From IMG/VR virus record IMGVR_UViG_3300025652_000386, positions 1 through 28,406 of that record: a DNA stretch of 28,406 bases; one strand, 5' to 3'. Below, piece by piece: positions 7 through 14,263 of this stretch (its first letter is position 1; each line of letters begins with the position of its first letter). Both the position numbers and the translations under genes were made by a program. A model generated the notes under the pieces. The model searched no databases. It saw only the letters and a program-made list of their open reading frames with translations, and was not told the DNA's origin. The stretch comes from a virus.

Positions 7-162
7 GAGGGATCGAAGTAACCCAAGGGAGGGATCGAAGTGATCAGAAAGAGGGATCGACGTAACCCTAAAGAGGGATCGAAGTGATCAGGAGGAGGGA
101 TCGACGCGCTGTCGAACAAGTGATCAAGAGGAGGGATCGAAGTGATCTAGAGGAGGGATCGA
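7..162. repeat. Array of seven 22-bp direct repeats (iterons)
   Basis: The core GAGGGATCGA recurs at 7, 29, 51, 73, 95, 131 and 153. The step is exactly 22 bp except for one 36-bp step between copies five and six, where 14 extra bases sit. Most units continue AGTGATC or CGTAACCC. The array and its right flank hold about 12 GATC sites in 185 bp. A 22-bp step is about two helical turns, so bound proteins would line up on one face, as at iteron origins or multi-site operators. It lies past the 3' end of terS, so a packaging site is another possibility. There is no gene in 1-257. Confidence 0.85.
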
Positions 163-165: not shown

Positions 166-178
166 ACTAATAATTAGT
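166..178. promoter_or_regulatory. 13-bp palindromic site, copy 1
   Basis: Perfect ACTAATAATTAGT, directly after the last iteron. No plus-strand gene starts just downstream, which sets this copy apart from most of the others. Confidence 0.7.
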
Positions 179-257
179 CGGATCGGGTACAGAATCTCGT
201 AGAAATGGCTTCGGACGGGGCCTTGCGCTAGTTCTCCCCTACTACCCCTTACCTATA

Positions 258-689
258 TCAAGCCTCTGCGAACAATCCCGACAGCCTATCCCTAAGCTCC
301 TGTTCGATCTCATCGGGCTTCCTGTGTTCTACCACTACCTTTGAGGACTCATCGAATACGCCCTCACTCTTTCCTAGTAGTTCGAGTGCCCGTACCCGTG
401 TGGATGGTGGGTTGCTGTCGTCCATAGCCTCTGTCTTCAATCGCTGAAGAATCCACTTGGCGTTGAGCTTTTCGTGTGCTCGCTTCGCATCCTTCTTGTC
501 AGCCTTCAGGTCTTCGATGGCAATCCGAACGTGGTCCTTCTTCGCTAGTCGTGACGCGAGGACGTTGACGGTCGAGTCCTTGCCCTTGGTATCGTACGCC
601 TTGCGGTAGGCATCGGAGTACGACAGCCCGGAAGCAACGAACCCGGCGAATGCGCTCTGCTTAGGTGTAAGCTCTCTAGGTATAGACAT
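258..689 (-). CDS. terS: Terminase small subunit
   Basis: 143-residue protein of the Terminase_2/XtmA type. It is expected to bind phage DNA at the packaging start site and hand it to the large subunit. The N-terminal helix-turn-helix reads LTPKQSAFAGFVASG with SYSDAYRKAY after it (about residues 6-33), followed by a helical middle and an acidic, Arg-rich C terminus ending in FAEA, all usual for the family. I chose the ATG at 689 because the longer reading to 824 runs back through plus-strand promoter DNA and has no family-like sequence. The Shine-Dalgarno is poor (TTGGGG). A possible promoter lies at 695-722, which would make the message nearly leaderless. The large subunit is not visible and may lie to the left of the window. 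The iteron array follows the gene. Confidence 0.8.
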   Translation of the reverse strand: MSIPRELTPKQSAFAGFVASGLSYSDAYRKAYDTKGKDSTVNVLASRLAKKDHVRIAIEDLKADKKDAKRAHEKLNAKWILQRLKTEAMDDSNPPSTRVRALELLGKSEGVFDESSKVVVEHRKPDEIEQELRDRLSGLFAEA

Positions 690-694
690 ACCCC

Positions 695-722
695 AAGATA
701 AGCACCAAGCCCGTACCGTCAA
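695..722 (-). promoter_or_regulatory. Possible promoter for terS
   Basis: On the minus strand TTGACG (717-722) and TATCTT (695-700) are 16 bp apart. Transcription would start at or within a base or two of the terS ATG. A G-run lies a little upstream, as at the plus-strand promoters. Confidence 0.4.
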
Positions 723-758
723 CACATTGACCCCCCGCTTGATACCCCTTGGGGGGGG

Positions 759-799
759 TTGACATATGTATTGACATTGATTAGATTTACTGGTAGGAT
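759..799 (+). promoter_or_regulatory. Tandem overlapping sigma70-type promoters, copy 1
   Basis: Two TTGACA boxes start at 759 and 771. The first is 17 bp from TAGATT (782-787), the second 17 bp from TAGGAT (794-799). An eight-G run precedes the first box. About 42 bp of this block are repeated almost exactly at 1441-1483. Confidence 0.75.
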
Positions 800-808
800 A
801 GGAGTGCA

Positions 809-836
809 GGCCGAAGCGGCCCAACTAATAATTAGT
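809..836 (+). promoter_or_regulatory. Leader hairpin plus palindromic site, copy 2
   Basis: A GGCCG/CGGCC hairpin with an AAG loop (809-821) is followed at once by ACTAATAATTAGT (824-836). The site is roughly 20-30 bp past the predicted transcription start and 20 bp before the next ATG, so it could be an operator. Confidence 0.7.
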
Positions 837-856
837 CCAAAAGGGAGGCAACTGAG

Positions 857-1156
857 ATGAGGATCAAGAGCGAGGCCGAGAGACGCTACAACGCGCTGGT
901 GACGCGGTTGGAAGAAATTGAGGCCGAGGTCGCCGCCGAGCGCGGTATGCTCGTGACCGATGTGTATCTCACCGACCCTGAGATTGATTACGAAAACACT
1001 GCCGACAGCCACGATTGGCGCACGGGCGAGCCGCTGGTCGAGGGCACGGACGCATGGTGGGACATGATGTACGGGCAAGGTGCATCAGCCGCTGGGGGCC
1101 GGGGCGAGGAGCTAGGCATCGACATCAATTCGTACTTCCCGAAGCCGATTTACTAG
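857..1156 (+). CDS. Small hypothetical protein (99 aa)
   Basis: First gene after the early promoter at 759-799. The start is an ATG with GGGAGG upstream. The N-terminal third is charged and likely helical (about residues 1-30, Arg/Glu-rich). The middle is acidic with two adjacent tryptophans (DAWWDMM, about 65-71). The end reads SYFPKPIY. It has no membrane segment, signal peptide or recognised motif. Its position makes it a likely immediate-early protein, the class that often modifies host functions. I do not recognise the family. Confidence 0.7.
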   Translation: MRIKSEAERRYNALVTRLEEIEAEVAAERGMLVTDVYLTDPEIDYENTADSHDWRTGEPLVEGTDAWWDMMYGQGASAAGGRGEELGIDINSYFPKPIY

Positions 1157-1168
1157 GAGAAAAAGAAG

Positions 1169-1420
1169 ATGATTACCAAGCGCACAACGGGACGGCTCCA
1201 GAGATTTATCGATGGCATATCCCTAACATACGCATCAGAGGTGACTGCACTGAGGGCGATAAACAAGCGAGTGCCCAATGCAGAGAGTCTTCCGGGCTGT
1301 TTCACGATCATGCCCCAGTCTGAAGGCGGTCGCTTCGCCATCGTGTACCTGTGCGACCAGAACGACCCATCTTGGATGGATGTATTCCATGGTGCAGGCC
1401 TTCCGGTCTTCGGTGTCTAG
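1169..1420 (+). CDS. Small hypothetical protein (83 aa)
   Basis: Starts 12 bp after the previous stop with AGGAGA upstream of the ATG, so it is probably in the same transcript. The N terminus is basic (KRTTGRLQRF). The rest is mixed alpha/beta in appearance, with two cysteines and a hydrophobic strand RFAIVYLC near residues 55-62. There is no membrane segment and I do not recognise the family. The duplicated promoter begins 21 bp after its stop. Confidence 0.65.
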   Translation: MITKRTTGRLQRFIDGISLTYASEVTALRAINKRVPNAESLPGCFTIMPQSEGGRFAIVYLCDQNDPSWMDVFHGAGLPVFGV

Positions 1421-1441
1421 GTGTAGGTGTATAGGGGGGAG

Positions 1442-1482
1442 TTGACATACATATTGACATTGATTAGATTTACTGGTAGGAT
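1442..1482 (+). promoter_or_regulatory. Tandem overlapping sigma70-type promoters, copy 2
   Basis: TTGACA boxes at 1442 and 1454, each 17 bp from a -10 box; the second pair ends in TAGGAT (1477-1482). Nearly identical to 759-799, including the 12-bp offset between the two -35 boxes and the upstream G-run. Confidence 0.75.
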
Positions 1483-1491
1483 GGGAACAGG

Positions 1492-1518
1492 GTCGGGAAA
1501 GCCCGACTAATAATTAGT
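1492..1518 (+). promoter_or_regulatory. Leader hairpin plus palindromic site, copy 3
   Basis: A GTCGGG/CCCGAC hairpin with an AAAG loop (1492-1507) overlaps the first two bases of ACTAATAATTAGT (1506-1518). The arrangement matches copy 2, although the hairpin sequence differs. The next ATG is 22 bp on. Confidence 0.7.
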
Positions 1519-1540
1519 TCACCGCCAAAAAGGAGGCCTC

Positions 1541-1795
1541 ATGGCTTGGCGACGGGATGTGGGACGATACGTCGATCTCTTCGGTGAGATCAAAAGAGAG
1601 AACCTGAGCATCTGGCTCAAGGCGAGAAAGGCTAACAGCGTCAACGCAGCCTACTGGTCACTCAAGCACGCACTGCCCGACGCCCGCATTCCGCGCCCCG
1701 ACACACGGTTGAAGGCGCATCAAGAGAAGTTCTTGAGCACCACGGGACAGTACACCCGTGGTTCTAGTGACCCGAGAAATCTTTCGTTCAACTAA
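1541..1795 (+). CDS. Small basic hypothetical protein (84 aa)
   Basis: The ATG follows AAAAAGGAGG at good spacing, directly behind the second early promoter. The protein is strongly basic throughout (MAWRRDVGRY, KARKAN, RLKAHQEK) and likely helical, with no membrane segment. Such proteins often bind nucleic acid, but no named fold is visible. Its 3' end encodes an 8-bp stem hairpin (1739-1762), and its stop codon lies inside the next palindromic site. I do not recognise the family. Confidence 0.65.
   Translation: MAWRRDVGRYVDLFGEIKRENLSIWLKARKANSVNAAYWSLKHALPDARIPRPDTRLKAHQEKFLSTTGQYTRGSSDPRNLSFN
1739..1762 (+). other. Strong hairpin at the 3' end of the upstream gene
   Basis: ACCACGGG (1739-1746) pairs perfectly with CCCGTGGT (1755-1762) across an 8-base loop. 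It sits about 30 bp before the palindrome at 1791, echoing the hairpin-then-palindrome order at copies 2 and 3. No U-run follows, so it is not a classic terminator. Confidence 0.55.
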
Positions 1796-1803
1796 TAATT
1801 AGT
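1791..1803. promoter_or_regulatory. 13-bp palindromic site, copy 4
   Basis: Perfect ACTAATAATTAGT. It contains the TAA stop of the upstream gene and ends 15 bp before the next ATG. Confidence 0.7.
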
Positions 1804-1818
1804 TCAAGGGGGAGCATC

Positions 1819-2100
1819 ATGAGGAAGAATTGCGAACGCACACTCAACGCTTGGTTTAGGGACGAGCCATTCGGCAAGCGCGGAGACTCCATCTGGACGG
1901 ACGGGAGCACCATCCACTCATACAACACATGGATCGTGGCAGTGCTTGCTGACTTCACCGGCATCCGGTTCCGGTTCAACAACACCAAGTACAGCAGGAC
2001 AACGACCACGCACCAAAACGCGATCCGCGAATACATGAAAGGCGACGGGTGGGCGCTGCGGTTTCACGAGGACGTGCCACGGGGCACCTATTCCTTGTAA
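1819..2100 (+). CDS. Conserved-looking phage protein, YS-TTTxHQ type (93 aa)
   Basis: The ATG follows AAGGGGGAG. The core holds SYNTWIVAVLAD and NTKYSRTTTTHQNAIREYM (about residues 34-75). This layout, a short Ser-Tyr strand and then TKYS-TTS-HQ, resembles small uncharacterised proteins seen in many phages and plasmids. No catalytic role is known to me, and I infer only that it is an established phage accessory family. It has no membrane segment or cysteine cluster. The gene follows palindromic site copy 4, and the next gene starts 12 bp after its stop. Confidence 0.7.
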   Translation: MRKNCERTLNAWFRDEPFGKRGDSIWTDGSTIHSYNTWIVAVLADFTGIRFRFNNTKYSRTTTTHQNAIREYMKGDGWALRFHEDVPRGTYSL

Positions 2101-2112
2101 AGGAGGAGTGAG

Positions 2113-2367
2113 ATGAGCACCAAGTTGAGGGATGATTTCGTGTCGATGTGCAGGGCACACTTTGCCAAGCACCCGGACGCCCCTGTCCCAATTCCCCCTT
2201 CGGGGTGTCAGTTGCGCCGGATCAATGCTGACGGGTCGATCACATATGTGTCCGAAAAGGTCAGGTGGACAGCTCAAGTCGGTGGCCGTATGTGCAACGT
2301 CTGGCGTGACTACTACGACCAGTACGGACGCAAGCACACGATACCCGAACCGGAGGGGGATGTATGA
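2113..2367 (+). CDS. Small hypothetical protein (84 aa)
   Basis: The ATG is preceded by AAAGGAGGAG. The N terminus looks helical (residues 3-18). Three cysteines are spread over the protein, with a likely beta-rich middle (QLRRINADGSITYVSEKVRW) and a C-terminal WRDYYDQYGRKHTIPEPEGDV. The family is unrecognised. It is probably co-transcribed with the gene upstream. A second frame (2132-2395) is open over the same stretch but has no ribosome binding site. Confidence 0.65.
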   Translation: MSTKLRDDFVSMCRAHFAKHPDAPVPIPPSGCQLRRINADGSITYVSEKVRWTAQVGGRMCNVWRDYYDQYGRKHTIPEPEGDV

Positions 2368-2445
2368 AGTGCGCAGTCGCAGGGCAGGAAGGTAGCACCA
2401 TGCCGAATCATTTGGAGATTGACCGCCGAGGAGGAGGGATCTGAG

Positions 2446-2700
2446 ATGGGGAACAAGTATGAGTCTGGACTAGAGTATATCCGGGCACACGGGATGCCGG
2501 ACGCCGAGACGTTTGATTGGGCTGTACCGTTAGAGCAATTCAAACGGGTATGCGATACCGCTGGGCAGAATGTGTCCGGGCGTGTTGTAACGGCATACGG
2601 TGATGGCGTGTTCGGTCGGATCGTCGGGCTGGACGACGAGGCTAGCGGGTGGGTTGCCCAGACGTTTGCTGTGGAATCTGCGGGTCATTCTAATAATTAG
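2446..2700 (+). CDS. Small acidic hypothetical protein (84 aa)
   Basis: I chose the ATG at 2446, which follows GAGGAGGAGGG, over an earlier in-frame TTG at 2419 that lacks a binding site. The protein is acidic, with a helical first third and a likely beta-rich second half (GRVVTAYGDGVFGRIVGLDDE). The stop codon TAG lies inside palindromic site copy 5, repeating what is seen at 1795. The family is unrecognised. Confidence 0.6.
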   Translation: MGNKYESGLEYIRAHGMPDAETFDWAVPLEQFKRVCDTAGQNVSGRVVTAYGDGVFGRIVGLDDEASGWVAQTFAVESAGHSNN

Positions 2701-2701
2701 T
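2689..2701. promoter_or_regulatory. 13-bp palindromic site, copy 5 (one mismatch)
   Basis: TCTAATAATTAGT, differing from the consensus only at the first base. The right flank TTCACCG matches that of copy 3. It is 38 bp before the next ATG, with a GGCAAA/TTTGCC inverted repeat (2707-2723) in between. Confidence 0.6.
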
Positions 2702-2739
2702 TCACCGGCAAAAAATATTTGCCACAACAAGGGGGAAGT

Positions 2740-3039
2740 ATGACCGATCCAAACTGGAACAGCAGAGCAGAGATGAGCTATATCATGGACTATCCGAATG
2801 AGGTGGACATGATAGCTTTCCATATCGACACAGAGATGGACAGGCTCGAAAGAGATATGGAGATGCTGCAATCATCACACGGCGAGTATCGTGAGATGAT
2901 AATCAGGGATGTGGCAACGACAAGGAATATCATCTCACATCATGTGAGCCAGATCATACGTCTCTGTGTCGAAGAGCCACAAGATACACTAGACCCGTGC
3001 CAGATTCATATGTTTCAGAAGGACGACGTCGGCCTATGA
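2740..3039 (+). CDS. Met/Glu-rich helical hypothetical protein (99 aa)
   Basis: The ATG at 2740 follows AAGGGGGAAG; an in-frame TTG at 2719 is less likely. Residues about 22-85 look like one long helical or coiled-coil region rich in Met, Glu, Asp and His (DTEMDRLERDMEMLQ, VATTRNIISHHVSQIIRL). It has no signal peptide. The stop overlaps the next start as ATGA, so translation of the lipoprotein transglycosylase may be coupled to this gene. The family is unrecognised. Confidence 0.65.
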   Translation: MTDPNWNSRAEMSYIMDYPNEVDMIAFHIDTEMDRLERDMEMLQSSHGEYREMIIRDVATTRNIISHHVSQIIRLCVEEPQDTLDPCQIHMFQKDDVGL

Positions 3040-3677
3040 ATAGACACAGCACCTTGCTCCGAAAAATTGTGAGACCATGGGATACAGGCTACACGTGTAG
3101 CCCGTCGCCCCCAGCTCATGTAAAAAATATTTTCATATTATTTTTTTTAATTGGGTGTCAGGGCGTCGATCAGGTGGAGGACAGTGCTCCGGTAGCATAT
3201 GGTCCGCCAAGTGTCTTAGAACGCAGCGTGGGGCCTGTGGAGGGGCATCTGACCAGTGTTCGGTGGCCATGTACGGGCAGCGGGTGCCTCGACGCATCCG
3301 ATCTAGCCCGACTAGCCGACCTCATACTGGAGCAATCCAGTAGGCTCGACCTAGAGGTGGCCATGATGGTTGGAATACTGATGGTGGAGAACCCTTGGCT
3401 CGACTCACTCGCAGTCTCTAGCGCGGGTGCGGTCGGCCTCTACCAAGTTATGCCGATGCACAGAGGTGCATGGCCTGAGTGTAGCGAAGCCATAGAAACC
3501 GTGGCCGGATCAGTCTGCCATGGGTCGGTAATCATCCATGACTTTCTACAGAGGAGAGGCAGCAGGAACATGGCCCTACTTGCATACAACGGATGCAGGA
3601 GTGGCCCGTGTGAGGTGTACCCAGAAAAAGTTTCTGGATATTCAGATCAATTTCTTAATGGGGAAGAACCACAGTGA
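3036..3677 (+). CDS. Lipoprotein lytic transglycosylase (SLT-like)
   Basis: 213-residue predicted peptidoglycan-cleaving enzyme. Residues 31-41 (NIFILFFLIGC) form a hydrophobic stretch ending in a lipobox, LIGC, with Cys41 followed by Gln, so an outer-membrane lipoprotein is plausible. The SLT fold follows: candidate catalytic Glu118 in MVEN, GAVGLYQVMP (131-140) and LLAYNG (181-186). The start at 3036 overlaps the previous stop (ATGA) and gives an unusually long 30-residue n-region. That region is largely encoded by dispersed hairpin element copy A (3058-3121). No other normal start codon lies between 3036 and the hydrophobic stretch. A lipidated phage transglycosylase outside the late block is unusual, and its role (lysis, entry or wall remodelling) is open. 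Confidence 0.75.
   Translation: MNRHSTLLRKIVRPWDTGYTCSPSPPAHVKNIFILFFLIGCQGVDQVEDSAPVAYGPPSVLERSVGPVEGHLTSVRWPCTGSGCLDASDLARLADLILEQSSRLDLEVAMMVGILMVENPWLDSLAVSSAGAVGLYQVMPMHRGAWPECSEAIETVAGSVCHGSVIIHDFLQRRGSRNMALLAYNGCRSGPCEVYPEKVSGYSDQFLNGEEPQ
3058..3121 (-). repeat. Dispersed hairpin element, copy A (inverted)
   Basis: On the minus strand this matches copy B from the ACATG start through the TTTTTCGGA end. The core dyad is at 3079-3110. Its inner 16 bases form a perfect palindrome, GGCTACAC plus GTGTAGCC, where copies B and C have G-C pairs (GGCGACAC type). Both arms have changed together. Confidence 0.8.
3621..3637. repeat. Short dyad of the GAAA-N3-TTTC type
   Basis: CCAGAAA and TTTCTGG, perfect 7-bp arms around AAG, within the 3' end of the transglycosylase gene. 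Confidence 0.55.
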
Positions 3678-3970
3678 AAGACATGGCAATGGCGACAGAC
3701 ATAGAAAGACTCCAACAAGTACACAAACAGAGGAGGGAGCAGATCGCTAATATTAAGCAAGCTAAATATTTTCTGCGTAAGGCGTCCAAAGACCTGACCA
3801 CTACAAGGACTAAGTGTAATTGTTGTGAGTTTAGCCTATGGGACGACGAGCCGGAAGCTAGGATGCACAGGGGTATAAAGTCAGCATTGAAACAGGCCGC
3901 CAAGGCGCAAGAGATGGCAGTAGATGACCTTGAAGACATCGAAGTGATGCAGAGGTTACAGGGCTATTGA
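3674..3970 (+). CDS. Coiled-coil hypothetical protein with a CxCC motif (98 aa)
   Basis: A GTG start overlaps the previous stop (GTGA); an ATG three codons on is an alternative. The protein is basic and helical at the N terminus (IERLQQVHKQRREQIANIKQAK), has KCNCCEF near residues 48-53, and continues helical and Ala/Glu-rich to the end. Three close cysteines could bind a metal, but this is not a recognised finger. It is the last gene before the promoter at 3987, so it probably ends the first plus-strand transcript. No obvious terminator follows. Confidence 0.6.
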   Translation: MKDMAMATDIERLQQVHKQRREQIANIKQAKYFLRKASKDLTTTRTKCNCCEFSLWDDEPEARMHRGIKSALKQAAKAQEMAVDDLEDIEVMQRLQGY

Positions 3971-3986
3971 ACAAGTAGGGTGGGGG

Positions 3987-4014
3987 TTGACATTAATATT
4001 TATTCCATTATTAT
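3987..4014 (+). promoter_or_regulatory. Sigma70-type promoter for the ATPase cassette
   Basis: TTGACA (3987-3992), 16 bp, TATTAT (4009-4014), preceded by a five-G run as at the other plus-strand promoters. The downstream DNA is very A/T-rich. Confidence 0.65.
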
Positions 4015-4055
4015 TATTGAGTATGTTGTTGGCTGCATCCAGTAGCACACACAGA

Positions 4056-4068
4056 ACTAATTATTAGT
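4056..4068. promoter_or_regulatory. 13-bp palindromic site, copy 6
   Basis: ACTAATTATTAGT: the centre base is T instead of A, so it is the same dyad read from the other strand. The right flank TTCAC is shared with copies 3 and 5. It ends 19 bp before the ATG. Confidence 0.7.
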
Positions 4069-4087
4069 TCACAAAAAAGGAGATGGT

Positions 4088-5257
4088 ATGAGCAAGATGT
4101 TCCCCGGTGCAACAATCACCCCACAACAGGCCGTTGAGGTGGTATCCGACTTGTCTTGGCCGATGCGGTCCAAGCTTCTGACCGTCATGCTTGGCTTTGT
4201 GGGTCAGGGCAAGACCGTAGCCGCAAGACTCGCCTCAGAAAAAATTTCTGAGGATCTGGGCCGCACCCTAGTGAACATGCGCGACCTGAGCCGCGCACCC
4301 AACGACGACGAGTTCGTTTATTGGGAGATCAACTGCTCCACATCTGATCGGAGTGACTTCCAGATCCCGTGGATTGAGGACGGATCCTACGATCTCGTAG
4401 TGCTTCATACGTTTCGGCTTCTGGCCGAGAACCCGAACGCACACGGGATGATCGTGCTCGACGAGATCGCTAAGAATCCCGAGTTGGCTCCAATTTTTGC
4501 GGAGATCGCAAGAGAGCGTCGGTTCGGCACGACGTTCAAGCTGCCTGACAACATCATGGTCGTAGGCACGGGCAACCGGGCCACTGACAACGCAAGCTCC
4601 TTCGAGTTGCCAGAGGATCTTCGCAATCGTGCGATGATTCTCGACGTTCAGTCCGATGAACAAAGCTTCCTCGACCATGAGAGGGATACGCTAGACCCTA
4701 CACTTGTGGCGGCGCTCAAATTCATGGGTGGGACATCAGAAAAACGGCTAGTCTTTGACTATGGCGACGCAGCCGTTCCGTCTGCGAACACACAGAAGTG
4801 TACGTTCCGCAGCGTGTCATGCTTCAACGATGTCATCAAGCTCGACTCTTGGGATTGGGATAAGTCGCACCATAGGCATGCGGGTGGGGGACTGATTGGG
4901 AGTGGGGCGTTTGGCACGATTGCAGCTAGTCAGGGCTTTGGTGAGCAGCTTGTCTTGATCAATCAGTATTTTGACGACCCGGAGGCCAACAAGGCGGAGA
5001 TCGAAAGCGTGTTTGTCCACAACAGCCTTAAGATGGAAGATATTTCTGCTTTCAAACACGCGCTTATGGTGTCCTTACTGAGCAAGATCAAGAAGGACGC
5101 AAGCAATTTCGAGACGGCTTGCAGGTACCTCGACATCATCAATTGCGCGGAAACGTACCGCTCGTTCCTTGTGTGCGCGAAACAGATGGACGAGTCATTC
5201 GCTAAGACGGCCCGGTATGCGAGCAGTCGTGCGTCAGATATCCGCATGTCGAATTAA
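4088..5257 (+). CDS. MoxR/CobS-like AAA+ ATPase
   Basis: 389-residue AAA+ ATPase, first gene of a three-gene cassette. Walker A is GFVGQGKT (36-43), Walker B MIVLDEI (121-127), sensor-1 region GTGNRATDN (160-168), and LPEDLRNRAMIL (174-185) supplies arginine-finger candidates. The order and the asparagine-rich sensor fit the MoxR/CobS branch. These ATPases act with VWA-domain partners as remodelling or metal-insertion chaperones, and a VWA protein is encoded two genes downstream. The start follows AAAAAAGGAG with good spacing. The C-terminal 180 residues show no motif I recognise. A 9-bp-arm dyad (4233-4253) lies in the early coding region. Its phage role is unknown; assignment to AAA+ is firm, to the MoxR/CobS branch likely. 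Confidence 0.85.
   Translation: MSKMFPGATITPQQAVEVVSDLSWPMRSKLLTVMLGFVGQGKTVAARLASEKISEDLGRTLVNMRDLSRAPNDDEFVYWEINCSTSDRSDFQIPWIEDGSYDLVVLHTFRLLAENPNAHGMIVLDEIAKNPELAPIFAEIARERRFGTTFKLPDNIMVVGTGNRATDNASSFELPEDLRNRAMILDVQSDEQSFLDHERDTLDPTLVAALKFMGGTSEKRLVFDYGDAAVPSANTQKCTFRSVSCFNDVIKLDSWDWDKSHHRHAGGGLIGSGAFGTIAASQGFGEQLVLINQYFDDPEANKAEIESVFVHNSLKMEDISAFKHALMVSLLSKIKKDASNFETACRYLDIINCAETYRSFLVCAKQMDESFAKTARYASSRASDIRMSN
4233..4253. repeat. Short dyad, 9-bp arms
   Basis: CCTCAGAAA and TTTCTGAGG around an AAA centre, inside the AAA+ ATPase gene. It is the longest member of the GAAA-N3-TTTC series. Confidence 0.6.
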
Positions 5258-5287
5258 GTCTCCCAAAAATCAGTAGGTTGTACACAC

Positions 5288-5315
5288 AAAAATATTTTTA
5301 GAGAAAAGATTTCTC
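5288..5315. repeat. Two adjacent A/T-rich dyads in the leader of the middle gene
   Basis: AAAAATATTTTT (5288-5299) is followed by GAGAAA-AGA-TTTCTC (5301-5315), just upstream of the ribosome binding site for the gene at 5336. The second belongs to the GAAA-N3-TTTC series. Confidence 0.55.
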
Positions 5316-5335
5316 ACATCAACAGGAGCCTCACA

Positions 5336-6340
5336 ATGAGGACAATTGAAGCAGAAGAGTATTTCGTGTGCAGTCTTGAGGTCGGCAAGTTTACCGGCAC
5401 CAAGGGCGACAAGGTGATGAAGAGTCAACTTGTGGAGCATGACAACAAGCGTGTGGGCGCAACGTTCCACCGCATCCCCACGAAGTACTACACAGCAATC
5501 GGCAAGGCCGAGCGCATGGGCAGGGACGCACTCTCTGATGGCAACTGGCTCTGGACATCCAAGCAACCGGGGGATTCTGGTAAGGCGTCATCTATGGACG
5601 GCTACCTTGTCCACCATGAGGACTTTCACGACTTGGATAAAAAAATGACCAAGGCCCGGAATGCTTTCTGGGCAGCCGCCGAAGAAAACATCATTCGGAT
5701 GTACGACTTCCACAGACGGCAGGGCCAGATCGCATACCGTCAGGCCACGGGTGAGAGCATGAGTGACGATCAGGTCCAACGGTTCTATCCCGATGTAACA
5801 GAGGTCCGCAAGGCGTTTGACTTCAGGTTCAAGCCCCTCCCTCTGTATGGGTCTCAGGGTGGAGATGGCTCGCGCATCTGGCACCCTTCATGGGGTGGCG
5901 AGAAGCGTGACTTGTTTGAGCGGGTGCAACAGGCGGCAATTGAGGACCAGAACCGCAGGGTCCAGAATGGCATGGAGGGTCTAGTTGGTCGTGTGCTGAA
6001 TGTCGCCAAACAGCAGGCAGAAAATATTTCCACTTATGAAAATTCTGGTGACGACAAGCCCAAAGGTCTGCCTTACGCAAACACATGGGCAATCATGGAA
6101 AACCTTGCTGACGAATTAGACAAGTGGGGTGGCAGGGTCACAAACGACAACGGCAAAATGCGCGGACTTGCAGTAGACATTCACCGCATGATTAATGGCA
6201 TCAACGATGCGACTGCGGGTAACGTCGGGGAGTTCCGTGGGATGATGTCGAACGAAGCACCAATCCGTGAACAGATCGGTTCACAACTCAAGAACATTGA
6301 AAGCTCTGCGTCTTCGGCCCTCGAAGACTTGCTTTCGTAA
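5336..6340 (+). CDS. Middle protein of the AAA+/VWA cassette, possibly DUF3150-like
   Basis: 334 residues, ATG after ACAGGAG. It is mostly helical and charged, with aromatic positions spaced as in RMYDFHRRQGQ and QRFYPDVTEVRKAFDFRFKPLPL (about 122-170). Two later helical stretches are FERVQQAAIEDQNRR and MENLADELDKWGG. It has no nucleotide or metal motif, signal peptide or membrane segment. In other phages a DUF3150 protein lies between a CobS-like ATPase and a CobT-like VWA protein, and this gene sits in that slot. Its YP-then-helical-core layout is compatible, but I cannot confirm homology by eye. It probably works with its two neighbours as substrate or adaptor. Confidence 0.65.
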   Translation: MRTIEAEEYFVCSLEVGKFTGTKGDKVMKSQLVEHDNKRVGATFHRIPTKYYTAIGKAERMGRDALSDGNWLWTSKQPGDSGKASSMDGYLVHHEDFHDLDKKMTKARNAFWAAAEENIIRMYDFHRRQGQIAYRQATGESMSDDQVQRFYPDVTEVRKAFDFRFKPLPLYGSQGGDGSRIWHPSWGGEKRDLFERVQQAAIEDQNRRVQNGMEGLVGRVLNVAKQQAENISTYENSGDDKPKGLPYANTWAIMENLADELDKWGGRVTNDNGKMRGLAVDIHRMINGINDATAGNVGEFRGMMSNEAPIREQIGSQLKNIESSASSALEDLLS

Positions 6341-6342
6341 AC

Positions 6343-6417
6343 AAGACCTAAAACATGGACCTAGGGGCGACGGGCGGCACGTGTCGCCTGTCGCCCATGG
6401 TCTCACATTTTTTCGGA
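6343..6417 (+). repeat. Dispersed hairpin element, copy B
   Basis: Starts two bases after the stop of the gene before it. The core dyad at 6365-6396 pairs 16 bases on each side with two G-T wobbles. It is followed by ATGGTCTCACA and a six-T run (6408-6413). In RNA this makes a long stem with a T-run ten bases later, so partial termination or mRNA protection is possible. Confidence 0.8.
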
Positions 6418-6436
6418 AAGAATGGAGGAGAACGAC

Positions 6437-7738: not shown

Positions 7739-8052
7739 TGCGAATGATGACAATACGAAACGTGCTACAAGCTCTTGGTCAAGAGGTGGACACGATGGTC
7801 GAGTTCGGTACCGGAGAGGTGAGCTGGACCGACCTAGAAAAATTTTCTGGACAAGCAATTGATTCGGTTAACTTCTTGGACGAGGTGGTTCTAGACTTCA
7901 ATAAAACCATGATGGAACACTTTGATTTCTTTGTTGACCTACAAGCCTCAGACGCATGGGCACACATGGCCCCAGAAGAAAGGCGCAGGGCGATAGACTT
8001 GGTAGATGACATGCGCGATGTGTACGATTTCTTTTTCTACGGAGAAAAATAA
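7738..8052 (+). CDS. Acidic hypothetical protein (104 aa)
   Basis: The start overlaps the VWA gene's stop (TAATG), indicating coupling; an ATG two codons on is an alternative. The protein is acidic and helical, rich in Asp, Glu, Met and Phe, with DDMRDVYDFFFYGEK at the end. It has no motif, membrane segment or cysteines. It is probably in the same transcript as the ATPase cassette and could be an accessory to it. The family is unrecognised. A GAAA-N3-TTTC dyad lies at 7836-7848. Confidence 0.6.
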   Translation: MRMMTIRNVLQALGQEVDTMVEFGTGEVSWTDLEKFSGQAIDSVNFLDEVVLDFNKTMMEHFDFFVDLQASDAWAHMAPEERRRAIDLVDDMRDVYDFFFYGEK

Positions 8053-8327
8053 TGTACAGAGACAAGAGGATGGCGCAGTATCTTTGCGCTGCCGCAATAA
8101 CTTGCGTGATGGGCAACAAGTCTGCTGACCACATGAGAAAGCAATTGTTTGAGGATGAATCAAAAGATCTCTCTGATTTTTGGTACGACATGGCTGCTGC
8201 CGTACACCAAGCATTTAGGTTGACGTCTCGTGACGCTTCGCCGGTCACATCCTCGGCCATTGTCAGCGCATCCCCCCGGATCATCGGGACACCTTCCCCG
8301 GAGTCACACAATGGAAAGCCCGACTGA
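8052..8327 (+). CDS. Small hypothetical protein (91 aa)
   Basis: The ATG overlaps the previous stop (TAATG). The first 60 residues look helical (YLCAAAITCVMGNKSADHMRKQLFEDESKDLSDFWYDMAAAVHQAF), while the last 30 are Ser/Pro-rich and probably disordered. It has two cysteines but no clear metal site. The 3' end overlaps the next gene by 17 bp, so the chain of coupled genes continues. The family is unrecognised. Confidence 0.55.
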   Translation: MYRDKRMAQYLCAAAITCVMGNKSADHMRKQLFEDESKDLSDFWYDMAAAVHQAFRLTSRDASPVTSSAIVSASPRIIGTPSPESHNGKPD

Positions 8328-8517
8328 CAAAAAAGGTTTAATTGAAACCGAAGAAATAATATTAGATTCGATTCACGACATTCTCACTGTCGTTAAGGCT
8401 TGGTGTGAGGCCGATGCCCGAATGGACCCGTCCCATGAAGGCCGAGTCCATCTAGTAGATTTTTGCGTTAGACAGGTGGAGCGCCTACTGGTGCCGCCGC
8501 CTGAACACTTCGACTAA
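8311..8517 (+). CDS. Small acidic hypothetical protein (68 aa)
   Basis: I chose ATG 8311 (MESPTDKKG) because the longer frame from 8230 is low-complexity Arg/Pro/Ser sequence overlapping the upstream gene. The protein is likely a helical bundle (ETEEIILDSIHDILTVVKAW, then VHLVDFCVRQVERLL). It has two cysteines and no membrane segment. The family is unrecognised. The ribosome binding site is weak, so coupling to the upstream gene is likely. Confidence 0.5.
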   Translation: MESPTDKKGLIETEEIILDSIHDILTVVKAWCEADARMDPSHEGRVHLVDFCVRQVERLLVPPPEHFD

Positions 8518-8555
8518 GGGTGGTCCCACCTAGAGGATCACAAGGAGACAGGAAG

Positions 8556-8861
8556 ATGAGAGGTAGGAAGGCGAAGAAGACCCGCGACAACGCCCTAGAA
8601 ACAGCCAAGTTTTCGGGACACGACCCATTACTGCTAGTGCGCTCAGGCGCTATGGAGGTGTGGGTCTGCAAGAATTGTGACGACATCTTGGATGCTTGGG
8701 ACAGGCCCGCTGTTGTGAATGGGCGAATGCCCTACACCCGATGCTCTAAGGCGAACAGGGGGAGACTCCACAGTCTCTACTTGGGGACGTTACTAATAAT
8801 TAGTAACTGTTTCCGTAGGCTGCTCCGGCTCAAGTTTCAGGAGGGAGACAGTGCCTTATAA
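8556..8861 (+). CDS. Basic protein with partial zinc-ribbon motif (101 aa)
   Basis: ATG 8556 follows AAGGAGACAGG, better placed than the GTG-type start at 8520. The N terminus is very basic (MRGRKAKKTRDN). VWVCKNCDDIL (about residues 37-47) gives a CxxC pair and a third cysteine follows in YTRCSK (about 65-70), resembling a small zinc ribbon lacking one ligand. Near its end it runs through a hairpin (8761-8778) and the longest copy of the palindromic site, so the last 35 codons coincide with regulatory DNA. It may be a nucleic-acid-binding protein; no family is recognised. Confidence 0.55.
   Translation: MRGRKAKKTRDNALETAKFSGHDPLLLVRSGAMEVWVCKNCDDILDAWDRPAVVNGRMPYTRCSKANRGRLHSLYLGTLLIISNCFRRLLRLKFQEGDSAL
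8761..8807. promoter_or_regulatory. Hairpin plus extended palindromic site, copy 7
   Basis: GAGACT/AGTCTC with a 4-base loop (8762-8777) precedes a 19-bp perfect dyad, GTTACTAATAATTAGTAAC (8789-8807), the longest version of the site in the window. It lies inside the 3' part of the upstream gene. Confidence 0.7.
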
Positions 8862-8889
8862 GCGTGGAAGACCTAAAACATGGACCTAG
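8851..8889 (+). pseudogene. 12-codon ORF with AT-hook-like core, cut off by element copy C
   Basis: A GTG start behind AGGAGGGAG reads MPYKRGRPKTWT and then stops at the TAG inside the dispersed hairpin element. RGRP is the AT-hook core, and MP-KRGRP is a common opening of longer DNA-binding phage proteins. A good binding site on so short a frame suggests a gene truncated by arrival of the element. No continuation of the reading frame is evident downstream. It could also be a chance short ORF. Confidence 0.3.
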
Positions 8890-8925
8890 GGGTGACGGGT
8901 GACACGTGTCGCCTGTCGCCCTTGG
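8868..8925 (+). repeat. Dispersed hairpin element, copy C
   Basis: Shares AAGACCTAAAACATGGACCT and the dyad with copy B. The core at 8890-8921 pairs 16 bases per arm with three G-T wobbles. Differences from copy B are C-to-T or G-to-A changes that keep pairing. The T-run of copies A and B is absent, and a CCCCC-TT-GGGGG dyad follows. Confidence 0.8.
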
Positions 8926-8954
8926 TCGTCCCCCTTGGGGGAGGCAAACAACTA

Positions 8955-9137
8955 ATGACCACAGCAGAAAGGACTGGTTGGGGGCTGCGTGGCGTCCTGA
9001 CAATGGATGACCTGACTCCGACACACCCTACACACCCAAATACCAAAACTCTCTCCACGCATAGACATAGAAAAAGTTTGCCAAAACAGACGTGTACCCT
9101 GTGTCGCTACCGAAAAGGCTGGACCAATGAGCACTAA
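8955..9137 (+). CDS. Small basic protein with CxxC (60 aa)
   Basis: The ATG follows GGGGGAGG at good spacing, with a half-site ACTAAT in between. The sequence is Thr/His/Pro-rich and basic, ending TCTLCRYRKGWTNEH with one CxxC pair. It has no membrane segment and low complexity in the middle. It could be a real small protein or chance coding in a regulatory stretch; the binding site is the best argument for it. Confidence 0.35.
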   Translation: MTTAERTGWGLRGVLTMDDLTPTHPTHPNTKTLSTHRHRKSLPKQTCTLCRYRKGWTNEH

Positions 9138-9138
9138 C

Positions 9139-9481
9139 CCTGACACGGTGTCACGGCTGCATCCACCGAAACACTGCTGACCTCACACGAGGTGACATTG
9201 AGGTGGCGAGCAGGATCTGTATTGGGGTCATGGGGACCCCAAACAGAAACCCCGCCTCTAGGCACGACTTTGACGAGAAGAGCCTAAAGACGGGGACAAT
9301 TACAAGACCTCAAGGGGCCTTGTTCTTGCATTCTGTTGGGAGAAAAGTTCTCCAGATGATGCTTTCTTTTGAGGAAACCATTCTTTGTGCTGCAACAAGC
9401 GCCACCTGCCAAGCGACAGATGACGCTACCTGTGGTGCTGTACAGGAATCGCGACGGAGGAGAAAGGAGGGAAAACCTCCG
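9139..9481 (+). other. Hairpin-rich stretch without a convincing gene
   Basis: Visible stems are TTGGGGTC/GACCCCAA (9222-9242), CAAGG/CCTTG (9311-9322), GGAGAA/TTCTCC (9339-9353), GCGCCAC/GTGGTGC with inner AGCG/CGCT (9399-9438), and GGAGG/CCTCC (9466-9480). A GTG-started frame (9203-9493, 96 aa) is open, but its start has a poor binding site and its ATG at 9230 lies in the first hairpin loop. It may be a structured RNA, a regulatory region, or a decayed gene. Confidence 0.4.
9455..9481. terminator. Possible bidirectional stop signal between convergent genes
   Basis: CGGAGG and CCTCCG, with GGAGG-GAAAA-CCTCC nested inside, lie between plus-strand DNA and the end of the minus-strand primase-helicase gene. 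No good U-run follows on either strand, so this rests on position and stem only. The A/T-rich dyad TTAGTT/AACTAA follows at 9487-9503. Confidence 0.3.
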
Positions 9482-9524
9482 GCACTTAGTTAATTAAACT
9501 AATTACCCACCTTGGCGCAAGCGT

Positions 9525-11276
9525 TTAGAAATCCCAATCGTAATCATCTTGGTAGTCATAGTCTCGCCACCTGCCGGTAGCCTTCTCAAACGACAGGGGG
9601 CAACTACCATTCTTTCCCAGCCACGACCACCGAACCTTCCAGATGTGCGCCTCCGGTGGCTCTTCGTCTCTCTGGTGACGCCAAGCTGATAAACCAATGT
9701 CTGCCTTGGCGAACCAAGCAGCAGAGCCTGCAATGTCATGCCCGGTAACGATTGTTTTGCGCTCCGACCTTCGGTCGGGAGAGATCTTGGTGGGGTGGGC
9801 CACAAAGAAGACATGCGCGTCATGCTCCTTTGCCCATAGTTGCACCTGAGTCAGCATTTGGCTGATGGCGTCAGTCTCCCGAAGGTTGCCACCTACATCG
9901 ATGTAGTTGTACGGATCAATGACCAGAATGCGGCAACCCATTCTCATCACAGCAGCGCTCGCAACATCAAGGATGCCTTCGATGTTGGTTGGACCATCCC
10001 TGCGGTAGTCCATGAACAAGAAGTGCTCCTTGATCCATTGGAATGCAAAATCCCTTTCTTCTGTGTCCATCTTTTCCACCGACCCATCAAAAAATGGCTT
10101 CCCAATTATTTTTTGTGCCAACTGGGCCATGTGCAACTCAGGGGGTTTCTCGAATGAACAGTACACGGTCTTCCATTCGTTGCTCTTCGCGAGGTTCAAG
10201 CAGATCTGGTCAACTAAATCCGACTTACCTGAACTTGGAAAGCCTGTCACAACGGTCAACATGCCGGTGGGCACCTGTATCAGCTTGTCTAGGCTTGGTA
10301 TCCCCGTTGAGGCGCCACGCGCCTGCCCCTTCTCGTATAGGTCGGTGTACGACTGATCGTAAACCTGAGCGTTATGCAGGCCAACGGCGGGCAATGGCGC
10401 CGCATCCTCAAAGGCGGCTGTTAGGTAGTCCACACCCTCTGCCATCAAGGCCTCTGACGCATCCTTGTGCTTGCCAAGTGACACGGTCCAAACCTTTGAG
10501 CGACCAATGCGCCGAAGCAATTCTTCCTTCAGGGCATCACCGGGGCTGTCGAGGTCGGTGTTGATAATGATACGGCCCGCAGAGTCTAGCTTGTCCTTGG
10601 CTCGCCAGATGTATCGAAACTTGTTGTCGTCGGCGGGATCAATCCTTCCGTCTTTCACCTTCGGTGGCGCACCATTGGGGATGGACACGACCGTCACCCC
10701 AGAGGGAAGGTCTGCGCTCATCCACGACAGTGCGTCTACCTCGCCTTCACAAACCAAGAGGTCGTCGCCCTTCGTGTACTTCTCAATATTAAAAAAATCT
10801 TCACACACATTTTGTTGGCTAAACCGCTTAGTCTGATCAGCGCTACGCCACTTTATTGAAGTGACATCGCCGGACTTGTTTCGGTACGGAAAACCAACTG
10901 CAGGCAGGCGTGAACCCGCAAAGCTGTACTCATCAAGAATCGCATGAGACGTTAAGACATCCTCTGATATCCCCCTACCAATCATGTAACTCATGGCTGT
11001 CTTGTTGGGGGTCTTGCCGTTTGTTTTGTCCACCCTAATTCTCTCCCTTTTAATTGGATGTTGCGTGTATCGTGTCTCCTTGTGTGCCCAACCACCATTC
11101 TCACCGCAGTGGTGGCAGGTGTACTGAACCCCCACGCCGTCAACCTTTACGGACAGCGGTCTGTCCGAGTTGTTCTTGCGTCTGGTGCCTTGGCACATGG
11201 GGCACCGAAGTTTCTTTTGGCCTACTCCTAGGCTCGCGCAAATATCCCTAATCTGCTGTGGCGCAACTGCAATCAA
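9525..11276 (-). CDS. T7 gp4-like bifunctional primase-helicase
   Basis: 583-residue replication protein expected to unwind the fork and prime lagging-strand synthesis. The zinc-binding domain has Cys25, Cys28, Cys54 and Cys57. The Toprim primase core shows CEGEVDAL (176-183) and NTDLDSPGD (239-247). The RecA-type helicase has Walker A GFPSSGKSD (345-353), Walker B ILVIDPYN (450-457) and VAHP (492-495). The C terminus is an acidic aromatic tail, DYDYQDDYDWDF, comparable to the gp4 tail that contacts polymerase. I start it at TTG 11276, which follows AAAGGAGGAGTC and overlaps the RusA-like gene's stop (TTGA). The ATG 105 bp upstream would lie in that gene. Confidence 0.93.
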   Translation of the reverse strand: MIAVAPQQIRDICASLGVGQKKLRCPMCQGTRRKNNSDRPLSVKVDGVGVQYTCHHCGENGGWAHKETRYTQHPIKRERIRVDKTNGKTPNKTAMSYMIGRGISEDVLTSHAILDEYSFAGSRLPAVGFPYRNKSGDVTSIKWRSADQTKRFSQQNVCEDFFNIEKYTKGDDLLVCEGEVDALSWMSADLPSGVTVVSIPNGAPPKVKDGRIDPADDNKFRYIWRAKDKLDSAGRIIINTDLDSPGDALKEELLRRIGRSKVWTVSLGKHKDASEALMAEGVDYLTAAFEDAAPLPAVGLHNAQVYDQSYTDLYEKGQARGASTGIPSLDKLIQVPTGMLTVVTGFPSSGKSDLVDQICLNLAKSNEWKTVYCSFEKPPELHMAQLAQKIIGKPFFDGSVEKMDTEERDFAFQWIKEHFLFMDYRRDGPTNIEGILDVASAAVMRMGCRILVIDPYNYIDVGGNLRETDAISQMLTQVQLWAKEHDAHVFFVAHPTKISPDRRSERKTIVTGHDIAGSAAWFAKADIGLSAWRHQRDEEPPEAHIWKVRWSWLGKNGSCPLSFEKATGRWRDYDYQDDYDWDF

Positions 11277-11704
11277 GACTCCTCCTTTAGCACTTGGTGT
11301 AGGGTGTCCACCACTAACTCCCTTTGCTCCCGTGGACCGACAACGATTATAGCACGAGGATCCTCCTTGTCGAGACCCCACTCAATATGTTTCAGTTTTA
11401 CTTGTCTATCGTTCTTGTAGACTTTGTCTTCCAGTAGATCAAGTATTAGACTTTCATCCAAGTCTGGTCTTCTGCTTTTGTAGAAAATCTTTATAGCAAT
11501 ACAAACATCATAATCTATAAGTTCTTCTCTACAACCAACTTGAGTATTAAAATCAGAGGAATATCCTAATGCTTTTTTGCTTTTAATAAACCTAGGTTTA
11601 CCACCCATCATCACAAGCCTTCGTGAATTAGCTTTCGACGCTGGCTCGCCGCGAACGGTAATGATACACGGTGTTTCGTCAAGGGTGTTGCGTGTCTTAG
11701 TCAT
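11273..11704 (-). CDS. rusA: RusA-like Holliday junction resolvase
   Basis: 143-residue nuclease of the RusA type, which cuts branched DNA made in replication and recombination. The diagnostic stretch is RRPDLDESLILDLLEDKVYKNDRQV (about residues 81-105), carrying the paired acidic residues of RPDLD and the late Asp of KND. The N terminus PASKANSRR and the KKALGY segment also fit. Start is ATG 11704, or ATG 11722; neither has a good Shine-Dalgarno, so the message may have a short leader from the promoter at 11738-11766. It is first in a two-gene operon with the primase-helicase. Confidence 0.8.
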   Translation of the reverse strand: MTKTRNTLDETPCIITVRGEPASKANSRRLVMMGGKPRFIKSKKALGYSSDFNTQVGCREELIDYDVCIAIKIFYKSRRPDLDESLILDLLEDKVYKNDRQVKLKHIEWGLDKEDPRAIIVVGPREQRELVVDTLHQVLKEES

Positions 11705-11716
11705 TATGTTTATCGT

Positions 11717-11745
11717 TTGCATCCGCTTCGGCTCAGCAGTATAAG
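11717..11745 (+). promoter_or_regulatory. Plus-strand promoter, divergent pair
   Basis: TTGCAT (11717-11722), 17 bp, TATAAG (11740-11745), upstream of the GTG at 11781. Its -10 box overlaps that of the minus-strand promoter. Confidence 0.5.
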
Positions 11746-11766
11746 GCCGACTTGTCCAATCAACAA
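11738..11766 (-). promoter_or_regulatory. Minus-strand promoter for rusA and primase-helicase
   Basis: TTGTTG (11761-11766) and TATACT (11738-11743) on the minus strand, 17 bp apart. The two promoters share base pairs, so RNA polymerase probably cannot use both at once. Confidence 0.5.
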
Positions 11767-11780
11767 CAACAGGAGGATCT

Positions 11781-12041
11781 GTGTCAGAAGAGCCGCGATT
11801 TCGTGTGCTCCAGAACGTCGGGGCACCACCCCAAACCTCAGGGAGGAAGAAGAGGTGGGGACACCTACCACTCGAAGATATCGATGTTGGCGACATGATT
11901 GAGCTTCCAATGAGTGAAGAGCAGTCAAGCGAATTGATATCGGCATTGAGTAGTTATGTGTGGAGGTTGTCAAAGAAGTTGAACAAGAAGTTTTCCGTTA
12001 AGAAAAACCACATCGGCATTGGAATCTGGAGGGTTTCGTAA
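11781..12041 (+). CDS. Small protein, first of two tandem paralogues (86 aa)
   Basis: A GTG start sits behind AGGAGG. The second half reads IDVGDMIELP, then a helical SSYVWRLSKKLNKKF, then a strand-rich HIGIGIWRVS. The next gene has the same plan (LEVGDSFFV, SFVSRYHRRLRD, NYIGVWRVQ), so the two look like a duplicated pair. The V-GD then helix then IWRV layout matches small phage proteins of unknown function that resemble a compact nucleic-acid-binding fold. No membrane segment or catalytic motif is present. The stop overlaps the next start (TAATG). Confidence 0.7.
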   Translation: MSEEPRFRVLQNVGAPPQTSGRKKRWGHLPLEDIDVGDMIELPMSEEQSSELISALSSYVWRLSKKLNKKFSVKKNHIGIGIWRVS

Positions 12042-12295
12042 TGAATGTTGAAATTCGTAGTGATGTTCCTATCCCCAAGCGTGGGGCGGTGGCGTACCCA
12101 ATCCTAAAATTAGAAGTTGGGGATTCTTTTTTTGTAGACGCAGAGATCGGCACTGACGGCGGGCAGAAGGCGGCCAACACCCTGCGCTCATTTGTCTCTC
12201 GTTACCATAGGCGCCTGCGTGACTCAGGTGACCCGCGCCGCTTTCGCGTCTCTCGCTACGACGATAATTACATCGGGGTATGGCGCGTCCAGTGA
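12041..12295 (+). CDS. Small basic protein, second tandem paralogue (84 aa)
   Basis: Coupled to its paralogue through TAATG. It has PILKLEVGDSFFVDAEIG (about residues 20-37), a basic helix (NTLRSFVSRYHRRLRDSG) and FRVSRYDDNYIGVWRVQ at the end. It is more Arg-rich than its partner, so the two may have diverged in binding preference. Both precede the recombination genes. Function is unknown; duplication followed by divergence is my inference from the shared motif order. Confidence 0.7.
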   Translation: MNVEIRSDVPIPKRGAVAYPILKLEVGDSFFVDAEIGTDGGQKAANTLRSFVSRYHRRLRDSGDPRRFRVSRYDDNYIGVWRVQ

Positions 12296-13014
12296 ATGTC
12301 ACCAACCAGTACGGCGCACCCGAACAATTCGTTCGTGCCATTCAGAACGACGGTTACTCGAAAGGGGAGGCAGACTTTAGTGCCACCGGCCTACTTCGCC
12401 CCCCACAAATAAGCCGTCTTGAATCAGAGCATGAAGACAAGTTGTCTACGGATGTGGCAGACAGGCTGTTTGCGTTACTTGGCACGGGTGTCCATGCGGT
12501 CCTTGAGGGCCATGCACCAGATGACGCACTGGTTGAGCAACGATGGTTTGCTGAGATGAACGGCTATGTGGTATCAGGTGCAATAGACGTTTACCACGAA
12601 GGGCACGTTACCGACTACAAGGTGACGGGAACCTACGCAACGATGGTGGGGAAGCCTGAGTGGGAGCAGCAATTAAATGTTTATGCTTGGCTGTTGCGCC
12701 AGAACGACATGCCTATTGAGTCGTTGACAATCTGTGCAATCTGTAGAGATTGGTCAGCAACCAAAAGGAACAAGCACCCCAAGAAGTCTAACAGGATGTA
12801 CCCGGCCTCACCGATTGTCCCAATCGACATTCCGCTATGGCTCCCCGATGTTGCAGAGAGATTCGTACATGAGCGCATTGAGCTTCACTCAAGTGAGTCA
12901 GTGGTGCCCTGCAGTGACGAGGAGAGATGGAGGAGGGGTCCAAGCTACATTCGGTGCGAAACCTACTGTTCGGTCGCGGACTTCTGTCCGCAATACCAAG
13001 CAGAGAAGTTGTGA
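12280..13014 (+). CDS. Cas4/RecB-like PD-(D/E)XK nuclease
   Basis: 244-residue predicted DNA exonuclease. The core motifs are His72 in GTGVHAVLE, Asp103 in SGAIDVY, Asp112 and Lys114 in TDYKV, and Gln130/131 in EWEQQLNVYAW, in the RecB-family order. Cys211, Cys226, Cys230 and Cys236 (PCSD, IRCETYC, DFCPQ) suggest an iron-sulphur or zinc cluster as in Cas4/AddB-like proteins. The start at 12280 overlaps the previous gene by 16 bp; a GTG at 12292 overlapping the stop is an alternative. Placed before the annealing protein, it probably makes the single strands that protein uses. Confidence 0.8.
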   Translation: MARPVNVTNQYGAPEQFVRAIQNDGYSKGEADFSATGLLRPPQISRLESEHEDKLSTDVADRLFALLGTGVHAVLEGHAPDDALVEQRWFAEMNGYVVSGAIDVYHEGHVTDYKVTGTYATMVGKPEWEQQLNVYAWLLRQNDMPIESLTICAICRDWSATKRNKHPKKSNRMYPASPIVPIDIPLWLPDVAERFVHERIELHSSESVVPCSDEERWRRGPSYIRCETYCSVADFCPQYQAEKL

Positions 13015-13021
13015 AGAGTCC

Positions 13022-13034
13022 ACTAATTATTAGT
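13022..13034. promoter_or_regulatory. 13-bp palindromic site, copy 8
   Basis: ACTAATTATTAGT, eight bases after the nuclease stop and 16 bp before the GTG of the annealing protein. I see no -35/-10 pair immediately upstream, so the site may act on readthrough transcription or recruit polymerase itself. Confidence 0.7.
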
Positions 13035-13050
13035 AAAAGGAGGTGGTAGG

Positions 13051-14093: not shown

Positions 14094-14263
14094 AGAGAAA
14101 GAGCATCCTTGTTCGTCTGCCCCCTGCGATAAAGCAGGGGGTGGATGATCAGGCTAAAGAGTCAGGTGTAAGCCGGAATAAGATTATAGTGGAAGCGGTG
14201 ACCCTGTACTTGAAAGACCTCAAGAACGGCCCAAAACCCACCAGAGATACTTGGTGGAAATAA
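14087..14263 (+). CDS. Ribbon-helix-helix DNA-binding protein (58 aa)
   Basis: The GTG start overlaps the SSB-like stop by seven bases. The sequence VERKSILVRLPPAIKQGV gives the beta strand and first helix of an Arc/CopG/MetJ fold (about residues 2-19). GVSRNKIIVEAVTLYLKDL gives the second helix with its SRNKII-VEA pattern (about 27-45). The basic tail ends DTWWK. Such proteins bind short inverted repeats as dimers and usually repress. The window has a repeated 13-bp dyad and this is the best candidate binder, but that link is inference. The gene is short and easily missed. Confidence 0.7.
   Translation: MVERKSILVRLPPAIKQGVDDQAKESGVSRNKIIVEAVTLYLKDLKNGPKPTRDTWWK

Follow-up and report, generated by a model that had tools for sequence, protein, structure and literature searches.

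The window analysed here is an IMG/VR contig of 28,406 nucleotides (28.4 kb) from an uncultured phage, probably marine judging from the most similar named phages. It raises the question of what a 13-bp perfect palindrome, ACTAATWATTAGT, does ahead of most early genes and what recognises it. We found seven exact copies and one with a single mismatch (Table 1), as the initial annotation had reported. Allowing up to two mismatches, the window holds 8 matches, against 0.22 +/- 0.52 expected from dinucleotide shuffles, none of which reached 8. The reversed pattern, searched as a control, gave 0 matches.

Six of the copies end 15-38 bp before a start, and all six starts are on the plus strand and have a Shine-Dalgarno sequence. 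The flanks described initially were recovered as well, with TTCA on the right of four copies and TTCACCG in two, and so was the lack of copies in the minus-strand late block (0 at 13035-28406). A promoter was looked for upstream of the copy at 1791 and none was found, which places this copy within an operon. No gene directly follows the copy at 166, which is next to the 22-bp direct repeats near terS. The frame that follows the copy at 8792 corresponds to the beginning of a gene that is intact in a relative (MPYK...), but in the window it runs for 12 codons before a stop. The half-sites at 8951 and 14505, once listed with the array, are at chance level: 8.2 ACTAAT hexamers are expected and 6 occur outside full sites.

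Table 1. Features of the window associated with the 13-bp dyads; promoters are sequence predictions and operators are putative
Feature	Position	Strand	Remarks
Seven GAGGGATCGA direct repeats	7..162	+	First five 22 bp apart; contig breaks off within the repeats, short of the slot of the candidate regulator in relatives
Putative operator, exact (ACTAATAATTAGT)	166..178	.	Between the 22-bp direct repeats and terS; synteny with G003 13945
Predicted sigma70-like promoter, TTGACA-N17-TAGATT	759..787	+
Putative operator, exact	824..836	.	About +30 of predicted promoter; 20 bp before ORF 857-1156
First early ORF, 99 aa	857..1156	+	Present only in relatives with the 13-mer
Predicted sigma70-like promoter, TTGACA-N17-TAGATT	1442..1470	+	53-bp near-copy of the one at 759
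Putative operator, exact	1506..1518	.	About +29 of predicted promoter; 22 bp before ORF 1541-1795
Early ORF, 84 aa, fast-evolving	1541..1795	+	Own-lineage palindrome upstream in several lineages
Putative operator, exact	1791..1803	.	Overlaps the end of ORF 1541-1795; 15 bp before ORF 1819-2100
Putative operator, one mismatch (TCTAATAATTAGT)	2689..2701	.	38 bp before ATG 2740
Predicted sigma70-like promoter, TTGACA-N16-TATTAT	3987..4014	+
Putative operator, exact	4056..4068	.	19 bp before ATPase gene 4088; other palindromes at the orthologous site in other lineages
AAA ATPase gene (PHROG 1297)	4088..5257	+	Putative operator upstream in four operator types
Putative operator, exact	8792..8804	.	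46 bp before truncated frame (GTG 8851); counterpart is G003 26095
Putative operator, exact	13022..13034	.	16 bp before Sak/ERF-like annealing protein gene 13051; precisely absent in G011
Sak-like ssDNA annealing protein	13051..13770	+	

A scan for ACTAATWATTAGTTCACCG returned six contigs. The 13-mer occurs 17 times in G001 (11.6 kb), 21 times in G003 (32.9 kb), 18 times in G004 (25.8 kb), and 13 times in G006 (10.2 kb), counted over whole records that are fragments and include several near-duplicates. A near-identical record, G005, has 7 copies. G002 (30 kb) has a single exact 13-mer with no surrounding array and was treated as unrelated. In the close relatives (13-21 copies), nearly all copies lie right before plus-strand early genes and 0 are in the late block. 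For 17 of the 21 copies in G003, a plus-strand start with a Shine-Dalgarno sequence follows 10-40 bp after the end of the site, compared with 6.4% of positions. This genome holds counterparts of the window copies at 166, 824, 1506, 4056, 8792, and 13022. The 13-mer is kept before orthologues of the same genes, a conservation that the initial annotation had put forward as the check on its proposal.

A sigma70-like promoter lies at most 110 bp upstream of 10 of the 29 distinct sites, compared with 7.5% of random positions of the early span, for a promoter threshold set by hand and a control region that includes the promoters themselves. At most promoter-linked sites, the dyad would fall at about +4 to +40. 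The remaining distinct sites lie between genes and have no recognisable promoter. The centre base of the dyad is unbiased in gene orientation (A 14, T 15). One could think of the sites as promoter elements bound by a phage activator or an alternative sigma factor, which would switch genes on. They do closely precede genes, and two thirds of the distinct copies lack a recognisable sigma70 promoter upstream. However, where promoters are seen the dyad is downstream of the start and not upstream of the -35 box, a symmetric dyad with an unbiased centre is ill-suited to a directional promoter, and the distance from motif to start is often 13-25 bp, leaving little leader. We regard such a role as unlikely. 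The non-sigma70 promoter element suggested initially is also disfavoured, given the perfect dyad, its unbiased centre, and the sigma70-like promoter found upstream of about one third of the copies.

The tight spacing before the Shine-Dalgarno sequence could also point to an element acting in the mRNA, in translation initiation or processing, as in the start-associated sequences of mycobacteriophage cluster K. The GGGGAA palindromes found in other lineages (see below) could form a hairpin of -7.3 kcal/mol, but ACUAAUWAUUAGU has a folding energy of only -0.1 kcal/mol, and the element of G011 one of 0. There is no consistent stem-loop upstream of the genes (mean z of -0.44 versus -0.12 in the control), some copies are away from gene starts, beside terS, and the centre base shows no bias. 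A function in the mRNA is thus very improbable. The symmetry of the dyad, its unbiased centre, and the instability of its RNA form favour instead a dimer on double-stranded DNA. From sequence comparisons, we think it probable that a lineage-specific dimeric phage regulator uses the dyads as its operators on double-stranded DNA; it would block early genes and would have been swapped together with these operators.

The relatives of the window are informative on this last point. A search with the primase found 21 contigs. Among the 20 records in which sites were counted, 18 of which are primase relatives, the 13-mer is present only in two that the motif itself had brought in. A de novo count of palindromes revealed other elements in their place: GGGGAA-N3-TTCCCC in G015, G016, G017, G020, G024, and G025; GGGGAA-N5-TTCCCC in G021; and three types that rest on few copies, imperfect ones included, and are less certain, namely AAAAATTC-G-GAATTTTT in G011 (5 copies), CATTAA-N4-TTAATG in G023 (7 copies), and AAGTTAACNGTTAACTT in G019 (3 copies). 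Two kinds of palindrome are never found on one contig, so that the kinds partition the relatives. The orthologue of the ATPase gene at 4088 has the local palindrome directly upstream in G000, G003, G016, G017, G015, G020, G021, and G023; in G025 no local palindrome was found immediately upstream of it. Hence, the relation between site and gene is kept across operator types while the sequence changes.

Genomes with different palindromes can be closely related. The primase tree groups G011 with G000 and G003 without resolving their order, and G011 differs from each ACTAAT genome about as much as these differ from each other (75-77% nucleotide identity in the primase). The genomes with the GGGGAA-N5 and CATTAA elements fall among those with GGGGAA-N3. 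In G011, the copy before the annealing-protein (ERF) gene is cleanly absent, with the surrounding bases aligned. The same genome keeps one mismatched 13-mer copy (TCTAATCATTAGT) before another gene, whose counterpart in G010 is TCTAATTATTAGT. Four relatives also have a single GGGGAA-type palindrome within the primase gene, in its 5' portion (G016 18001, G017 8389, G015 12477, G020 3360), away from gene starts. Named phages recovered as relatives through TerL, namely the Pelagibacter phages HTVC027P and HTVC023P as well as 023Pt_psg01 and DSL-LC04, are distant, and their first 48 kb contain no array of this kind.

A slot between the late block and terS encodes a protein of 260-345 aa in each operator type whose contigs reach it. 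The window contig ends just before the slot, and its own slot lies beyond the left end. The relatives with the 13-mer (G001, G003, G004, G007, and G008) have a protein in the slot that we call R262, encoded at 12937-13725 in G003, and G011 has one of 271 aa. The slot proteins of the GGGGAA-N3 genomes are related to one another and have KNxxKGIR in common, and those of G021, G023, and G019 are different again. Similarity is clear within the ACTAAT group and within the GGGGAA-N3 group, and a profile comparison of R262 with the GGGGAA-N3 slot proteins found no similarity. The site consensus and the slot protein thus differ together between lineages. In three types the slot gene has a palindrome upstream (24 bp in G003, 26 bp in G019, about 150 bp in G011); none of the operators was found in the 230 bp upstream in the GGGGAA-N3 genomes G016, G017, G020, and G025, nor in G023.

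Position and co-variation with the operator type make R262 the most likely candidate for the regulator of the 13-mer, and the slot proteins in general candidate binders of their local sites. They fit no family of Pfam or PHROG, and a search among named phages gave none at E 0.01. The model of R262 is too poor for fold comparison (pLDDT of 46). That of a GGGGAA-N3 slot protein (G016, pLDDT of 78) has no significant match in PDB or BFVD, its best VIA-align Z being 5.8, among unrelated chains, and with a single model compared the slot proteins may still have a helix-turn-helix or stoperator-domain fold. Queries of GTDB genomes with the primase and the GGGGAA-N3 slot protein revealed neither a host nor a prophage.

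Other proteins fare less well. The initial annotation had proposed a phage regulon and named the products of 14087 (RHH) and 16246 (wHTH) as candidate binders. The regulon is supported, with a single type of site, which is conserved and lies downstream of promoters or inside operons. The named binders are not, as both proteins are present in relatives with other operators. The beta-strand of the RHH protein, KSILVRLP, is identical in G000 and G011 despite their different operators, and the recognition region of the wHTH protein is common to G004 and G011, though G011 lacks the 13-mer. The 84-aa early protein encoded at 1541 is a second candidate, but no counterpart of it was detected in G019 or G023, two genomes with palindromes of their own.

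The lack of a match to a DNA-binding fold in the usable model of a slot protein would fit sites that are operators of a host-encoded regulator, with the palindrome type mirroring the host of each lineage. However, the slot protein changes with the operator type and has a palindrome upstream of its gene in three types, and a regulon of 13-21 sites limited to the early genes of a phage is more typical of a phage regulator. We find a host protein highly doubtful in this role.

The sites are also places where genes are exchanged. G001 and G003 have most of the early region in common, with genes inserted or replaced, and 11 of 20 and 9 of 20 homology breakpoints between them are within 25 bp of a site centre, when about 2.4 and 2.0 are expected. 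The repeated unit of putative operator and Shine-Dalgarno sequence thus serves as an exchange boundary as well. Since the phage encodes a Sak-like annealing protein, the sites might even be mainly recombination linkers at cassette boundaries for this protein, with no regulator involved. This would leave unexplained the dyad symmetry, the position relative to promoters, and the replacement of palindromes at orthologous genes. Moreover, repeats for crossover need not be palindromic, there are none of the inversions that a symmetric recombinase site would allow, and exchange at boundaries would be expected as a side effect wherever an operator is repeated. A role restricted to recombination is accordingly quite unlikely.

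Under the regulator-operator reading, a dimeric phage protein would bind the dyads as double-stranded DNA. Its operators would lie just downstream of early sigma70-like promoters, and the promoterless ones just before the Shine-Dalgarno sequence of further early genes, where the bound protein would prevent transcription from being initiated or elongated, one gene at a time, as at mycobacteriophage stoperators. Related phages would have swapped regulator and operator together, such that early genes stay controlled while the recognised sequence changes. A protein bound at these sites would most naturally act as a repressor. Searches of 15 records, which include fragments, yielded neither a tyrosine or serine recombinase (integrase, resolvase) nor a ParA-type ATPase above the cut-off. 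This does not point to a lysogeny repressor, and makes early-gene shut-off or the superinfection exclusion of related phages a more likely purpose than lysogeny.

Repeated sequences between small genes are known where phages exchange modules, as in the PeSL mobile cassettes of T4-type phages (promoter and stem-loop) and the boundary sequences of lambdoid phages. The sites described here are similarly regulatory sequences repeated between small genes where modules swap, but unlike PeSL the repeated piece is a short dyad with a Shine-Dalgarno sequence, often without promoter or stem-loop. The start-associated sequence (SAS) of cluster K lies 3-8 bp from the start. It is a 13-bp element found just upstream of many starts and kept with orthologous genes, and it has an optional inverted-repeat companion (ESAS, 17 bp) with a consensus that varies by subcluster (PMC3203893, PMC12699233). 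The SAS is asymmetric (GGGATAGGAGCCC) and is thought to act with translation initiation (PMC3203893, PMC12699233). Our element is also repeated just upstream of many gene starts, but it is a palindrome located 13-46 bp upstream, with no separate asymmetric or second element.

The closest parallel in distribution is with the stoperators of cluster A mycobacteriophages, bound by the repressors of L5 and Bxb1: 20-30 short intergenic sites dispersed over the genome, a minority of them at promoters, whose sequence diverges together with the repressor between lineages to give different specificities (PMC6550527, PMC9283540). The sites studied here are likewise many, short, and dispersed (7-21 per genome), with 10 of 29 distinct sites linked to promoters, and their consensus changes between lineages together with the candidate regulator. 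Such a mixture of promoter-linked and promoterless intergenic sites is what operators combined with stoperators show (PMC6550527). Yet cluster A stoperators are asymmetric and bound by monomers, their orientation matters, and their repressors have a recognisable helix-turn-helix and belong to temperate phages (PMC6550527, PMC9283540). Here, the sites are perfect dyads, mostly right before the Shine-Dalgarno sequence of single early genes, the slot proteins match no known domain, and searches revealed no integrase.

Taken as a circuit, this looks like gene-by-gene control whose specificity keeps changing. With chances that we put a little short of even, the slot proteins, which belong to no described family, may form a new class of phage master regulators of unknown fold, encoded beside terS and controlling the majority of early genes, with one operator per gene, repeated replacement of the regulator and its operator set, and a unit of operator and Shine-Dalgarno sequence that lets new genes recombine in already controlled. 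It has long been asked, in work on phage immunity and network rewiring, how the specificity of a regulator can shift along with that of dozens of dispersed operators. The intermediate steps are open to study in close genomes (primase 85% identical) that have different candidate pairs, one of them keeping a decayed copy of the other type. Such a unit would also be a concrete route for phages to gain accessory early genes already wired into control.

Several other elements were noticed. The GAGGGATCGA direct repeats at the left end of the window are also found in G003 (13827-13941), between the regulator slot and terS, and other lineages have different repeats at the same place; they are possibly a packaging or origin site. 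A strong stem-loop unit with a 14-pair stem occurs in three copies in the window (3058-3121, 6343-6402, and 8868-8927), one of them inverted, with z of -6.5 and -5.7 for two copies; it is terminator-like, with a T-run after the copy at 6350-6420. Genome-wide scans also identified a tmRNA-like RNA of 82-83 nt (RF00023, 59.5-64.5 bits) in G003 (L012, 15746-15828), G006 (L016, 1311-1392), and on the minus strand of G001 (L011, 6510-6591). It adjoins a putative operator and has the tRNA-like ends of tmRNA, and pairing in its acceptor stem is preserved in spite of differences between G003 and G006. The middle is almost wholly missing, which leaves no room for a tag reading frame, and such a minimal tag-less tmRNA would be unusual in a phage. 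Finally, G016 carries a match to the Mu-gpT-DE RNA (Rfam RF03012) at 19278-19329 (L051), with 55.2 bits, above the gathering score.
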